NCBI GenBank assembly: GCA_031281735.1
Contig: JAITEZ010000291.1
Coordinates: forward strand, 1-33,255
DNA length: 33,255 nt
Direction: 5' to 3'
DNA from: Deltaproteobacteria bacterium
GTDB taxonomy: Bacteria > Desulfobacterota > Desulfarculia > Adiutricales > Adiutricaceae
Shown here: in pieces, positions 26,845 to 33,255 of the stretch
Position numbering within the stretch: position 1 is the stretch's first letter
Layout: every line of letters begins with the position of its first letter
Translations under genes and position numbers: made by a program
The notes under the pieces: model-generated
What the model was told of the DNA's origin: nothing
Database searches by the model: none
Seen by the model: the letters and a program-made list of their open reading frames with translations, nothing else

Positions 26845-27264
26845 TTACCAAATGGTGCTGGCAAGCGCTGTGGACGTGGAGGTCCTGACAGTGGACGCGG
26901 AGGCGCTGTTATAGAGGTAGACGGTGGAGCCATCGGCCTTGTGGCGAACCGAGAAGGAGAAGCCGGCATTGGGGGAGGTAATCACGGCCAGGCTGCCGTA
27001 GTAGACGTTGGCATCCTTCACGAGGCCGCCATCGGTTGCCAGGGAGGTGTAGCTGGCAACATAAGAGCCCTTCTCGGCGAAGTAGGCCTCCTGGGAGGTG
27101 GCTATGGCGTGGTAGGCGGACTGGGCCGCGTTGTCCTGGGCGCCCTTGCGGTACTTGGCGTACTGGGGGATGGCGATGGCAGCCAGGATGCCGATGATGG
27201 CGACGACGATCAGAAGCTCGATAAGGGTGAAGCCCTCGCGGTTCTCGTTGATCTTGGTGAACAT
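26845..27264 (-). CDS. pilA: Type IV major pilin-like protein (PilA)
   Basis: This 139-residue prepilin has an 11-residue basic leader ending in Gly11, cleaved before Phe12 ([20 protein letters not shown]), with Glu5 of the mature protein in place. The N-terminal helix continues [20 protein letters not shown]. The globular part has no cysteine, so the disulfide loop of many pilins is absent. The last ~20 residues are unusually Ser/Thr-rich ([18 protein letters not shown]). AAGGAGCG precedes the ATG, a sigma-54-type promoter lies 109-124 bp upstream, and a strong terminator follows, as for a highly expressed structural gene. The N-terminus resembles Desulfobacterota pilins. No pilB/C/D genes are in the window, so a pseudopilin role cannot be fully excluded. 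Confidence 0.92.
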
Positions 27265-27418: not shown

Positions 27419-27592
27419 GTGAGTATAAGTATATCTATAATTAGTAATTTATATATTTAAAAGGTATATAAAATTTAATATAAATATAAAATTAATTTAT
27501 AAAAATATAATAAATAAATAATTATATATATTAAATTAAAATTATATATAAAAATATATATATTTTCAATTATAAAATAACGTTTAAGAGTG
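27419..27592. other. Extreme AT-rich island upstream of the pilA promoter
   Basis: About 170 bp made almost only of A and T, with many TATATA/TAAATA steps, in otherwise very GC-rich DNA. It begins ~30 bp upstream of the -24 box, where an IHF/HU bend between a sigma-54 promoter and its enhancer is normally found. It contains no gene. Xenogeneic origin or a silencer-protein (H-NS-like) target is the alternative. Confidence 0.8.
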
Positions 27593-28023
27593 GCGGTCTC
27601 TATGTCTACTCCAGTCTTTGTGCACGCAAAATAATCGAGGTTAATAGTCGGTGAACGGACAGCAGGTCATCAGCCGGTTGTGAAGGAGAGGGATGGTCTT
27701 GGAACACGGATCCTCCTTCCATACAGTTATGGCAGGAGGCCCTTCCGCCTGGCGCGGGCGGATCCCTGAGGAGTCCGGCGGTACTTCCCCGGACTGGAAG
27801 GAAGGACGGCCAGTAAGGCGCCAGGTCGCGGGGTTACGCCGCCCCGGCTGACGTGCGAAAGCGGGGGGCGGCGTATGATACAGTAATTTTGGTAGCTTGA
27901 ACGAAACCGTCAGTATCAGGCGGCTGTCGGAGAAGAGGAGGATATTCCCGGTGTCTAAGGTGGCATCAGGGATGGCGGTTCAAAGGTTGATGATGGTGTT
28001 CCCAAATATGGTCTTTAAAGTCG
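27593..28023. other. Non-coding stretch between two AT islands, with an 11-bp inverted repeat
   Basis: No convincing gene. TACGCCGCCCC (27835-27845) and GGGGCGGCGTA (27865-27875) form a perfect stem with a 19-nt loop. Three GTCT blocks lie at about 27596-27619, a possible upstream activator site for pilA. Base composition is less GC-biased than in the coding regions. Confidence 0.5.
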
Positions 28024-28092
28024 CAATCTATAGCACTAAATTTAATATAATAAATATAAATTAATCATATATTTTCGATTAATATTAAAAGG
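28024..28092. other. Second AT-rich island
   Basis: About 70 bp of almost pure A/T (TAAATTTAATATAATAAATA and similar) ending in ATTAATATTAAAAGG. It could serve as promoter or UP element for the structured-RNA-like region downstream on the plus strand, but no exact -35/-10 pair can be singled out. Confidence 0.6.
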
Positions 28093-28989
28093 TTTCCATT
28101 CACGAACGATAGTCTCATTGCCGTTGGCAGGCGGCCGGATACCATGGATCAGGCCGGAAGACGCGGGTCACGTTGCCAGCCATGACGGCCGCCCCCCGGT
28201 GCCGATCTCCCTGCTTGGGCTCAGGTGCGGAGGCACGGGCTACATCGAGGACTCTCTTAGGTGAGAGGCTTCCCCTGGCATCCGTCGGGATCTGTCCCTT
28301 GCCGGAAGACCGTGGTCGGCCGAGGCCGGGGCGGGATACGCCGTAGATGTCCCGCCGTGATCACCCGCTTTGGCGCAGTGGTCTCCTTCACGGGGCGCCT
28401 TCACGGGGGGGGGCGGCTTCGCTTCCGAGGTGCGGGCCAGGGTCAGGCGGCGAGGCCAGTCAGGGCCGATCCCGGAATCCCTGCGGGCGGCCACTTGGGC
28501 TTCGGGAAGAGGGGGGGTGCCATTCCTCTGGGGGGGAGGAGGTGCCTCAGGGCCGGCTCTCGGACGCTTCCTCCGCAGGGATACGGCGGCCGGGCCTGCG
28601 GCATCGCCGGAGGGGCGGGGCGTTCCTCTTTCCAAGATGGGATCCCACGGGGCAACTATGTTGACACGCGCCCTCCTGGCGGGCTCGCGGGCTGCGGCCG
28701 TCCAGGCTCTTCCTGGAGGGACGGGTGCCCGGGAAGCCGTTCCCTCGCGATACCCCTGCGAGGACGGCTTGCGGGAGGGCACTCCCCTGGCGTCACCCCC
28801 GTGACGTACTTGGGACGCCACCCCTCCGGGGCTTCCTTCTCGGGCCGACTCGCGGCAGGAGGTTCCGCCTGTCTCCCCTCCCCTCCCCTCCCCGCCCTCC
28901 TGGCCGACTCATCGGTCGATGCTCTCCCCGCGCTTTCAAGTGGGGCGGTGTACGGGGCGCGGGCTTTCCCTGCCCTCCTTGCCTTGAAT
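28093..28989. other. Long GC-rich stretch without a convincing gene
   Basis: Open frames exist on both strands (for example 28261-29004 + and 28240-28821 -) but encode low-complexity Gly/Arg/Pro-rich peptides with no domain, so I treat them as chance frames. A perfect CGTCAC/GTGACG hairpin lies at 28791-28806. The four-run CCCCT tract at 28875-28893 is listed separately. Confidence 0.5.
28875..28893 (-). other. Canonical G-quadruplex motif
   Basis: On the minus strand four GGGG runs are separated by single A residues, the tightest form of an intramolecular G4. It lies about 1.6 kb upstream of pilA on the pilA coding strand. Confidence 0.7.
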
Positions 28990-29831
28990 GGAATCGAAAG
29001 GTGACTCCACCTGGCAGGCTGAGATACCCGCCCGGCAACTGGGTCGCTCCGACCGGTAACGGTAGCGACCTTGGGGTCATGGGGGCAAGGAATGGATCAG
29101 GCAAGGGAAAGGCCAAAGGTCGCCTAAACGGGGGCCGAGAGCAGGCAGGCTGCAGGGCAAGCGATCGTAGAGCAGGCCTCGAGATGTTCAATGTGGGAGC
29201 CGTCCCGTCAATACCCCGGGGAAGGCCGGCACCGGCTGACGGCGACAACCAACCTGTTCCCTAGGGTGGATTGAGAGAAGGGTTACTGACAGATTGGCCG
29301 GGGAAAGCATAGGCCGGTTCCGCCGGGGTAATGACGGCTACATGCGGGCAAACGGCAGGTATCGCGACACGGGAAGCCCCGCATGGCCGGTCTCGGTAAC
29401 GATGGCGTATGAACCGGTGCCCGGCGGCGGATAGGATCAGGTCTGAAGAGTGGCAAGCCGGGCCATCGGCGGATCCGCCCTTGCGGGACGGCGTGTGAGC
29501 CCGGGTGAAGGTACTCAGTTCGTAACACCCCTGAAGGAGAGGCCATGAGGCGGCATTGAGCGGGAACAGCGCCGTCACTGGGCGCACCTGGCGGGAAGAA
29601 GGGCGTCCATGGGGAAGCAAAGAGGGAATCCTGCCGTACACCCCTGTCTCACCATGCTAAGGCTACAGATCCCTCGGGATACGGGGAGGAACCGAAAACC
29701 CGGCCTGCGGAGGCGTGCACCCTCGCATGCCTAGGACAGCCTGACAAGGTCTGGCAGTCCTCAAGCAGCGCGGCTTTGACGTGGAGGGTTTTCGTCAGGT
29801 GATAAATCGAATGCCCCGTACCTGCCGGAGG
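28990..29831 (+). ncRNA. Candidate large structured RNA (possibly group II intron-derived, no reverse transcriptase)
   Basis: Many well-formed stems lie in order on the plus strand. At 29042-29070, arms GGTCGCT/AGCGACC enclose a second stem ACCG/CGGT capped by a GTAA (GNRA) loop. Arms CATGCGGG (29341-29348) and CCCGCATG (29378-29385) pair perfectly. GGCGTGC/GCATGCC pair near 29711-29732 with one wobble. AGGAC-A-GCC pairs with GGC-A-GTCCT at 29733-29761 around a symmetric A/A pair. ACCTG/CAGGT closes near 29820-29836. The stretch lacks a credible protein frame. It resembles group II intron domain I-III style sequence, but I see no domain V and no reverse transcriptase, so the class is open. 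It ends where the tail of the 29832 gene diverges from its paralog. Confidence 0.45.
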
Positions 29832-31745
29832 TCAGGTGCCGGTCAAGCCGTATGGGCCCCGGGCCCGGAGAGGGCCAGTCTTCCCGAAGAGAGCGGCAAG
29901 GCAAAGAAGGGCGAAAACGGACAGCGCTGCCGCGCTGACGCGGTTGGCCCATCCCATCCCCGTGAAACGGACCTCCGCCTCCAGTAGACCGCGGTCCGGG
30001 AGGCCGGTGAGAACGAGGCCGTGTAAGGCGCCTGGGCCGGGCCCGTCCAGGGCGCCGAAGCTGGATCCGGCCAGGAACCCCAGGCCCTCCCTCATCTGCC
30101 AGACTGTTTCGGGCCGGAAAAGGGCCCCGCTCCCGTCCACGCTTACCTTGATCTCCTGGAGGCCGGGATAGTAGAGGACGTCCAGGGGCACGCCCCCGTC
30201 CGGAAGCCTGTGTACTCGGGAAAGATCCGCCGTGAACAGCCTCCGCGCCGCTCCCCCCCTGCCCGGGACGGGCTCAAGCCCGGGGGGGGCCCACTCTCCC
30301 GATTCAGGGCCGGGGGGAGTCCTGAAATAGGCGTCGTTGCCGTAGGTCAGGACGCCGAGGTCGCGCAGGAGGGTCTCCGTCACGGGAAAGGGATAGCCCG
30401 GCGTCAGTTCCTGCTGGTGAAGGTAAGGGCCGGCAAGGACGGCGGCGGAGAGGGCCAGGGCCAGGGCCGCGCCCTTGCGGGCGGCGGCCTGCGCCGCGCC
30501 CCCCTGGAACAGCGCCCCGAGGGTCATGGCGCCCATCAGCGAGGCCGCGAGCACGAAGATCATGACGTAACGGAACGAGGCCTGGGCCGCCTGCACGGGA
30601 GGGAACAGGCTCGCCATGGGACCGGGGGCCGTCACCAGCGCGAGGGCCAGGAGGGCCGTGACGATGAGCGGCGCAAGGTGCGGGGGCCTCCGGAGGGGAG
30701 GGCGGGCGCGGAGGGCGGACCAGGCGCAGGCGAGGAAGGAGAGGAGCAGGGGAGCCCCCAGCTGGATCCTGAGGGACAGGATGCCCTGGGTCATGATCAT
30801 CCTTTCATCGGAAGGGCTCAGCAGGGCGAGGACAGGGACGGCCGTGGATTCGAACCCGTTCCTGGGCAGCATGAGCTCTTTCATGATGAGATCGCCGTAG
30901 AGGGCGGCGGGCCCCAGATAGGCCGCGGCCATGAGGGCCGCGAAGGCCCCGGCCGCCAGGGCTCTCGCGGCCCTTCCCTCGAGCTTCCTCGGCCAGCAGC
31001 GGCGCCCTTTCCCCCGCGCGGAAAGGAGGTTCAGGGCCCAGAGGGCGCCGAATACGGCGAGGAACAGGGCCAGGAAGAAGGACGTCAGCAGGTGGGTGGC
31101 GAACAGCGCCGCCAGGGCGGCCGAGGACGCGAGGAAGCGCCCGATACCTCCCGCGCACGACCATCTCAGGAGGAGGTACAGTGCCAGGGGCGACAGGTTG
31201 AAGGCCGCGAACTCGGCCCAGGCGGTCCGCGAGACCCTGTCGAGCAGCAGGTACGGGGAAAGGGTGAAGAGGAAGGCGCCCAGGCAGGCCGCAACGCCGG
31301 AGAGGGTGAGAAGCCGGTAGAGTCTCCAGGCACCGACGAAGCCCAGCGCGGTGAAGAGGACGGCCGCGAGGGCGTACCCGGTAAGGACGTTGCCCGCGAG
31401 GATCCCGAGCGCCGCCGGGACGGCGTGGGAGAAGGGGGGGTAGAACTGGTGGTAGGGGTTCCCGAGTCCGCGGGACAGGGACGGCGAGACGCGGGGAGGG
31501 AACTGGCCCTCCGCGACGGCGTCCCGGAAGCTCAGGGAAAGGATCAGGTTGTTGAACTGATCGACGTTGAAGACGTTGCGTCTTCCGCCGTGCACCGTCT
31601 CCAGGGAGCAAAGGGACAGGGAGACCGCGAGGGCGACGATCCAGGGAAGGATCCCGTGCGGACTTCGCGCGGCGCGGGGGCAGGGACGTGGAAGGTCTCC
31701 GGCACCTGATCGGCCGGGCGCGGCCTTTTCGGCTGGTATTCCCAT
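29832..31745 (-). CDS. Polytopic membrane protein, PTPS-related/GT-C-like family, tandem copy 2
   Basis: I start at the ATG at 31745 (637 residues, AGGAG upstream); an in-frame ATG at 31898 overlaps the previous stop (TGATG) and is possible through coupling. After a first membrane helix (PWIVALAVSLSLCSLE) comes the exported loop VDQFNNLILSLSFRDAVAEG and GLGNPYHQFYPPFSHAVPAA, as in the gene at 4847. Further membrane segments follow, then a C-terminal exported domain (LYYPGLQEIKVSVDGSG; GLPDRGLLEAEVRFTGMGWA) and a last helix. It is close to its upstream neighbour at the DNA level, so the duplication is recent. The last ~15 residues differ from that copy (RGPYGLTGT), as if the end had been replaced by the neighbouring RNA-like element. 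A sugar-transfer role is inferred only. Confidence 0.75.
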   Translation of the reverse strand: MGIPAEKAAPGRSGAGDLPRPCPRAARSPHGILPWIVALAVSLSLCSLETVHGGRRNVFNVDQFNNLILSLSFRDAVAEGQFPPRVSPSLSRGLGNPYHQFYPPFSHAVPAALGILAGNVLTGYALAAVLFTALGFVGAWRLYRLLTLSGVAACLGAFLFTLSPYLLLDRVSRTAWAEFAAFNLSPLALYLLLRWSCAGGIGRFLASSAALAALFATHLLTSFFLALFLAVFGALWALNLLSARGKGRRCWPRKLEGRAARALAAGAFAALMAAAYLGPAALYGDLIMKELMLPRNGFESTAVPVLALLSPSDERMIMTQGILSLRIQLGAPLLLSFLACAWSALRARPPLRRPPHLAPLIVTALLALALVTAPGPMASLFPPVQAAQASFRYVMIFVLAASLMGAMTLGALFQGGAAQAAARKGAALALALSAAVLAGPYLHQQELTPGYPFPVTETLLRDLGVLTYGNDAYFRTPPGPESGEWAPPGLEPVPGRGGAARRLFTADLSRVHRLPDGGVPLDVLYYPGLQEIKVSVDGSGALFRPETVWQMREGLGFLAGSSFGALDGPGPGALHGLVLTGLPDRGLLEAEVRFTGMGWANRVSAAALSVFALLCLAALFGKTGPLRARGPYGLTGT

Positions 31746-31897
31746 GGGGAGCGGAACTCCTGGCCGCAACCGGTTCCCGAGGCTCGGGCGGGTCCGCAGT
31801 GGTCCCCTTCTTGATCGGGGGACGATCTGAAAGAAAGGACGCGGGATACCGGGCTTCGACGGTTGCGGTGGTTGCCGCGTGATTATAGCCTGGATCA

Positions 31898-33255
31898 TCA
31901 CCGGATAGCCATGTCCTGCCGGCGCGCGGCAGGCGGTCGGCGGGGTGGTGCCTGTCCTGATCGGGGAAGACCACGTCCGCGCCGCAGCCACGCGATCAGG
32001 CAGAGCGCGGCGAAGGCGGACAGCGCCGCCGCGCTGACGCGGTTGGCCCATCCCATCCCCGTGAAACGGACCTCGGCCTCCAGGAGGCCGCGGTCCGGGA
32101 GGCCGGCGAGAACGAGGCCGTGGAAAGGGCCGGGGCCTGGCCCGTCCAGGGCGCCGAAGCTGGACCCGGCCTGGTCATCCAGGCCCTCTCTCACCTGCCA
32201 GAGGGTTTCTGGCCGGAAACGGGCCCCGCTCCCGTCCACCCTGACCATGATCTCCTGGAGGCCGGGATAGTAGAGGACGTCCAGGGGCACGCCCCCTCCC
32301 GGAAGCCTGGGGACACGGGAAAGATCCGCCGTGAACAGCTTCCGCGCCGCCCCGCCCCTGCCCGGGACGGGATCAATGCCCGGAGGGGCCCACTCTCCCG
32401 ATTCAGGGCCGGGGAGAGTCCTGAAATAGGCGATAGTGCCGTAGGTCAGCATGCCGCGGTCGCGCAGAAGGGTCTCTGTCACGGCCAGGGGATAGCCCGA
32501 TGCCAGCCCCTGCTGATGAAGGTAGGGGACGGCCAGGACGGCGGCGGAGAGGGAAAGGGCCAGGGCCGCGCCCTTGCGGGCAACGGAATGCGACGCGTCC
32601 CCAGGGAACACAGCCCCGAGGGTCATGGCGCCCGTCAGCGAGGCCGTGAGCACGAGGATCGTGACGTAACGGAACGAGGCCTGGGCCGCCTGCACGGGAG
32701 GGAACAGGCTCGCCATGGGACCGGGGGACGTTACCAGCGCGAGGGCCAGGAGGGCCGTGACGATGAGCGGCGCCAGGTGCGGCGGCCTCCGGAGGGGAGG
32801 GCGGGCGCGGAGGGCGGCCCAGGCGCAGGCGAGGAAGGAGAGGAGCAGGGGAGCCCCCAGCTGGATCCTGAGGGAAAAGATACCCTCCCCGATCAGGTCC
32901 TTCCTTTCGTCGGCAGGGCTCAGCAGGGCGAGGATCGGGACGCCGGAAGACCCGAACTGGGTCGCGGGGAGTATGAGGTTCTTTATGATGAGATCGCCGT
33001 AGAGGGCGGCGGGCCCCAGATAGGCGGCGGCCATGAGGGCCGCGAAGGCCCCGGCGGCCAGGGCCCTAGCGGCCCTTCCCGCGAGCTTACCCAACTCGCC
33101 GCGGCGCCCTTTCCCCCGCGCGGAAAGGGAGTTCAGGGCCCAGAGGGCGCCGAAGACGGCGAGGGACAGGGCCAGGAAGAAGGACGTCAGCAGGTGGGTG
33201 GCGAACAGCGCCGCCAGGGCGGCCGAGGACGCGAGGAAGCGCCCGAGGCCTCCCG
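31898..33255 (-). CDS. Polytopic membrane protein, PTPS-related/GT-C-like family, tandem copy 1 (5' end outside window)
   Basis: The frame is open to the right edge (GGLGRFLASSAALAALFATH at the cut), so the ATG at 33094 is internal and the gene is 5'-truncated by the window only. The visible ~450 residues cover the second half of the membrane domain and the exported C-terminal domain (LYYPGLQEIMVRVDGSGARF; HGLVLAGLPDRGLLEAEVRF; TGMGWANRVSAAAL). It aligns with the next gene almost base for base over about 1.2 kb apart from scattered changes. Its stop TGA overlaps an ATG of that gene. Confidence 0.8.
   Translation of the reverse strand, partial: GGLGRFLASSAALAALFATHLLTSFFLALSLAVFGALWALNSLSARGKGRRGELGKLAGRAARALAAGAFAALMAAAYLGPAALYGDLIIKNLILPATQFGSSGVPILALLSPADERKDLIGEGIFSLRIQLGAPLLLSFLACAWAALRARPPLRRPPHLAPLIVTALLALALVTSPGPMASLFPPVQAAQASFRYVTILVLTASLTGAMTLGAVFPGDASHSVARKGAALALSLSAAVLAVPYLHQQGLASGYPLAVTETLLRDRGMLTYGTIAYFRTLPGPESGEWAPPGIDPVPGRGGAARKLFTADLSRVPRLPGGGVPLDVLYYPGLQEIMVRVDGSGARFRPETLWQVREGLDDQAGSSFGALDGPGPGPFHGLVLAGLPDRGLLEAEVRFTGMGWANRVSAAALSAFAALCLIAWLRRGRGLPRSGQAPPRRPPAARRQDMAIR

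Follow-up and report, generated by a model that had tools for sequence, protein, structure and literature searches.

Does a stretch that lacks a gene and folds on paper into a series of stems (positions 28990-29831 of the window, which is the whole stretch from 1 to 33,255 of contig JAITEZ010000291.1 of a deltaproteobacterial genome) record a structured RNA, and if so, which one? A first-pass annotation had picked out helices by eye on the plus strand and proposed a candidate large structured RNA in the style of a group II intron: either a truncated intron or a large RNA of a kind not yet described. We followed up this proposal with folding tests, homology searches, covariance models and a phylogeny of the copies.

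The stretch judged on its own

The coding side of the proposal held, as no plausible gene runs across 28990-29831: a protein-coding frame was looked for, the open frames are short or spurious, and tblastn finds no remains of a reverse transcriptase (RT). The helices themselves did not rise above chance. The minimum free energy of 28990-29831 is -352.3, against -353.2 +/- 6.7 in shuffled sequences (z 0.14), and 11 of 20 shuffles fold as stably; because the DNA is GC-rich, there is no folding signal above the shuffles. Rfam at gathering score returns two tRNAs and no group II match in the whole window, nothing relevant appears between 27400 and 29900 at E <= 5, and the stretch gives no match to RF02003 (group-II-D1D4-4), whose gathering threshold is 49 bits. 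Had only such single-sequence tests been run, there would have been grounds to dismiss the observation.

These silent tests are what speaks for the view that the stems arose by accident in GC-rich non-coding DNA and have no biological identity. We give that view almost no credence, since it is contradicted by an independent covariance-model match and by compensatory changes among homologs that are themselves group II introns, as set out below.

Homologs and the ancestral structure

The window copy is one of about seven dispersed in the same genome (G000, a metagenome-assembled genome, or MAG, of 86% completeness, to which these counts refer), with 64-72% identity among them. A search for other copies recovered C44, C20, C57, C285, C91 and C152 (E from 3e-40 to 4e-8) and the weaker C331. 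More stand in the genomes of relatives, often as several identical copies at contig ends, as expected if recently active, young multi-copy introns break assemblies. In G005, G010, G021 and G032, several contig ends carry the same intron end.

The family can be named from these relatives. RF02003 is matched at 52-84 bits by copies in G009, G016, G023 and G032 and at 80-110 bits by L123, L124, L126 and L151. An RVT_1 RT follows directly behind domain III in G016:C49 and G032:C256, and the former carries a maturase domain. With the RT of G023:C82 as query, matches are found in L123 (Deltaproteobacteria bacterium Kf353_bin9, identical to the query), L125 (Cd354_bin82) and L151 (Candidatus Adiutrix Gx485_bin45). 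The window most likely comes from the Adiutrix-like Desulfobacterota, which inhabit the guts of termites and cockroaches; a search of the literature for group II introns of bacteria from termite guts found nothing relevant.

Covariance models tie the window copy to this family. The match of model R1 to the window is not independent because R1 contains the window copy, and model R2 was therefore built from nine copies, none of them from the same genome. R2 matches 28979-29182 at 60.6 bits (E = 1e-17; the next match has E 0.17), and in the window copy 36 of the 45 model pairs remain standard.

Covariation in homologs is present as well. Across 27 further matches, all of them in other genomes, 91.7% of cells are paired and 24 of 46 pairs show two-sided changes, and none of 500 shuffles does as well; six copies from the same genome pair at 81.4%, with two-sided changes in 14 pairs. 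Both alignments lean towards the model because they were fitted to it. An unfitted MAFFT alignment of domains I-III in 35 copies reaches -15.0 kcal/mol with 22 two-sided pairs, where 12 column shuffles attain at best -4.3 kcal/mol and 8 pairs; the six own-genome copies alone, also unfitted, reach -68.4 against -57.0 at best in shuffles.

Taken together, the copies that match group-II-D1D4-4, the R2 match and the covariation identify the window copy as the remnant of a group II intron, as the first-pass annotation had guessed; its other option, an undescribed large RNA, is not supported. The plus strand descends from a large structured RNA, and the evidence is evidence of descent, with no sign of a working RNA. 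We are highly confident in reading 28996 to about 29735 as the fossil of an ORF-less group II intron copy of group-II-D1D4-4 type, even though it misses the Rfam thresholds and has no significant domain V/VI, and although the supposed driver RT is not seen in its own genome (MAG 86% complete).

The still recognisable domain I fold could also be taken as a sign that the host adopted the intron-derived stretch to serve as a large RNA, either regulatory or structural. We regard this as very improbable: the position is not conserved between copies or genomes, the flanks of the own-genome copies differ, decay is uneven and the fold is no more stable than shuffles.

Extent and missing parts of the window copy

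Table 1. Parts of the intron remnant and adjoining features in the window.
Feature	Coordinates	Strand	Evidence
Intron domains I-III, decayed; main homologous block	28996..29503	+	63-68% identity with five to seven other own-genome copies; relatives-only model R2; covariation in homologs
Decayed domain IV-like middle part without RT	29504..29735	+	Patches matching copies C91 and C44
Place expected for domain V/VI by multiple alignment; no significant match	29808..29878	+	Alignments; model R3
Approximate point where the intron-derived stretch meets the converging gene's 3' end	29879..29909	.	89% gene-paralog identity starting sharply at 29910
Separate dispersed repeat of ~900 bp; its right end adjoins the intron and stands in place of the first intron bases	28091..28995	+	
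AT-rich island	28023..28103	.	Base composition of flanks

In the sensitive alignment, homology to many other intron copies begins at 28995-28998, slightly inside the start first proposed at 28990, and the main block ends at 29503 (Table 1). Beyond it, patches at 29552-29635 and 29661-29731 match C91 and C44 (70% over 87 nt and 73% over 71 nt). The intron-derived stretch may run slightly past the end proposed at 29831, at most to about 29909: the gene at 29832-32051 resembles its paralog only from 29910, which places the junction between about 29735 and 29909. By the multiple alignment, the last codons of this converging gene may lie on a domain V/VI trace that is itself not significant.

What remains is alignable with the RT-bearing members through domains I-III, with base pairs kept. 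The GUGYG start and part of domain IV have been lost, and domains V and VI are no longer recognisable. At the place of GUGYG the window copy reads GAAUG where family copies read GUGCG, and these bases agree with the right end of the neighbouring repeat; its 5' flank is a different repeat altogether. Model R3, run with filters off over 29300-30100, finds no significant domain V/VI; the aligned domain V segment takes no domain V fold and lacks the AGC/CGC triad pairing. A domain VI with its bulged A and a 3' AY end is absent from the window copy and present in C44, C20, C285 and relatives, and an intron-encoded RT/maturase is likewise absent here and found in relatives. The suggestion of a truncated intron is thus borne out: domains I-III are kept, and RT and domain V are missing (tblastn, R3), as the first-pass annotation had also noted. 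Most bacterial group II intron copies are truncated (PMC4424553), and the window copy is of an ordinary kind. More interest attaches to the family to which it belongs.

The comparison with the RF02003 introns that carry an RT (Granulicella aggregans L126, Syntrophaceae L124, Candidatus Adiutrix L151 and Kf353_bin9 L123) sums both sides. Their domain I-III sequence and pairs are like those of the window copy, and R2 and the alignment place them in the same family; unlike them, the window copy has no RT, no GUGYG and no recognisable domain V/VI, and it stays below the Rfam threshold.

Probable separate bursts of ORF-less copies

A maximum-likelihood tree was computed from 36 copies. It unites the six G000 copies whose 5' part is intact in one clade (100/99); eight G013 copies make up a separate clade (100/100), and those of G016/G006 fall into a third (100/99). 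The G000 copies stand on longer branches, with long terminal ones, and the G013 copies on short branches. Complete G000 copies measure about 1.0-1.1 kb and have no RT; tblastn finds no RT remains in any of the own-genome family copies. Since the own-genome copies form one clade and none has RT remains, an ORF-less form probably spread in trans and then decayed.

A parallel is offered by G013, which holds at least two dozen similar ORF-less introns, mostly of about 800 nt (L255, L256, L257, L259, L261, L275 and L279). The genome has 26 R1 matches and ten RT fragments. These copies resemble the window copy in intron family, in the missing RT and in their AT-rich insertion sites; they differ in their separate clade, short branches, mostly canonical domains V and VI and CTCTACCCTAC end. 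They are an independent, younger burst, and the simplest reading is that separate ORF-less bursts spread in trans, recently in G013 and long ago in G000.

The only RT found in G000 is a frame-broken group II RT at L076 (G000:C213, 4417-5420), and the D1D4-3 and D1D4-1 matches beside it point to another intron type. No intact RT of D1D4-4 type was found in this genome (MAG 86% complete). With its sole RT frame-broken and standing among other group II types, the driver would have been lost or left unassembled.

A precedent for spread in trans exists in the ORF-less introns of Thermosynechococcus elongatus (PMC2882425). There, as here, ORF-less copies (TeI3) multiplied in one genome, and an RT acting in trans was invoked as the driver. 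The difference is that TeI3 kept RT remnants in the ORF deletion, RTs are present and mobility was assayed (PMC2882425), whereas the present case shows neither an RT remnant nor an intact driver.

The most likely history is as follows. An RT-bearing intron of the D1D4-4 family would have entered an ancestor, and one copy would have lost its RT gene. An RT/maturase supplied in trans could then have spread this short intron to AT-rich intergenic sites. The copies would afterwards have decayed, and at the window copy a repeat of about 900 bp would have come to adjoin the 5' end. The window copy is almost certainly inactive today, and we do not expect it to splice or move.

A non-canonical domain V

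The canonical domain V fold is found in the RT-bearing copies and in most G013 copies. The 3' strand of domain V reads GGAAU in G016:C69, C44, C20 and C285 and GGGAU in C152, where others read GGUUU, which leaves the AGC triad of these five copies without its usual pairing. G016:C47 is changed in the same way; C320 and C61 of G000 do not have the variant. Domain V segments with GGGAAU/CGGAAUU instead of CCGGUUU were noted at L062 5334-5445, L063 4891-4779, L065 5439-5547 and L056 3746-3638, all in ORF-less copies and across two genera.

Might the own-genome clade be an ORF-less lineage that lives on with an altered domain V, spliced and moved with the help of proteins in the past or still today, and the window copy one of its weaker members? 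We think this unlikely. The altered domain V is common to C44, C20, C285, C152 and G016:C69 and recurs in G016:C47, and in the own-genome copies 81% of pairs are still intact, 14 pairs having changed on both sides. Against this, the own-genome copies pair less well than relatives (78-85% of pairs kept, versus mostly 82-100%) and sit on long terminal branches, the variant is missing in C320 and C61, and domain V is wholly missing in the window copy. By domains I-III, moreover, C69 groups with the RT-bearing C49, whose domain V is canonical. This grouping would make the domain V variant convergent or exchanged, a reading of the sequences that is suggestive only.

The corresponding claim about the variant itself is just as doubtful: that the window copy's clade, together with G016:C69 and C47, is an ORF-less lineage that multiplied with a non-canonical domain V, its AGC triad facing an AA-containing loop in place of the usual GUU. 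If it were true, such introns would escape domain V surveys, on which the supposed rarity of ORF-less introns in bacteria is based. An odd domain V common to several copies would also offer a test of the extent to which the catalytic core can drift in an intron that goes on spreading. We return here to the fossil copy as the preferred reading.

Setting of the remnant

The 5' flanks of the family are AT-rich in 19 of the 21 copies examined (GC 0.15-0.48 over 60 nt), the exceptions being the window copy and the Granulicella copy. At the window copy, the ~900-bp repeat separates the intron from the AT island at 28023-28103. The intron likely lay at AT-rich DNA first, with the repeat inserted on its 5' side later. 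The upstream AT island that the first-pass annotation had offered as a driver of transcription does exist, and another lies at 27419-27595, but nothing marks it as a promoter; it may be better read as an intron insertion flank. AT-rich islands in this genome of ~69% GC include these two and a dozen within 2.2 kb of contig C57 (L064 5348-7514); introns lie next to such islands, as do some of the left ends of the ~900-bp repeat.

The repeat at 28091-28995 is GC-rich and has about 25-35 matching places in its own genome (besides the window, L068 197-1067, L302, L304, L296, L298 and L299). It has no convincing match in 59 relatives and none in Pfam or Rfam. Its left end follows the consensus GTATCCGTTCACG, and its right end in C8 reads CGTGAACGGATAC. 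The window repeat has both ends in a matching variant, TTCCATTCA / TGAATGGAA, which is a possible short inverted terminal repeat; both ends are seen in some copies only. The structural signal is weak (-61 versus -57 kcal/mol at best in column shuffles), and the repeat is a candidate MITE-like element or an RNA with a closing stem. We rejected it as the 5' half of the intron RNA, given its own copy set, ends and distribution and its lack of an Rfam match.

About 450 nt between the two AT islands (27576-28030) contain no gene, and the segment 27570-28040 is single-copy in the genome. The 27.4-29.8 kb gap was considered as one element and rejected on account of this single-copy segment.

On the far side of the intron, the genes at 29832-32051 and 31898-33253 (minus strand) encode membrane proteins that are tandem paralogs, with 89% identity towards the 3' end; PTPS_related matches the first one weakly and below its cut-off. 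At the other edge, a type IV pilin-like protein with an N-terminal methylation motif (PF07963) is encoded at 26845-27264 (minus strand) and adjoins the non-coding stretch.
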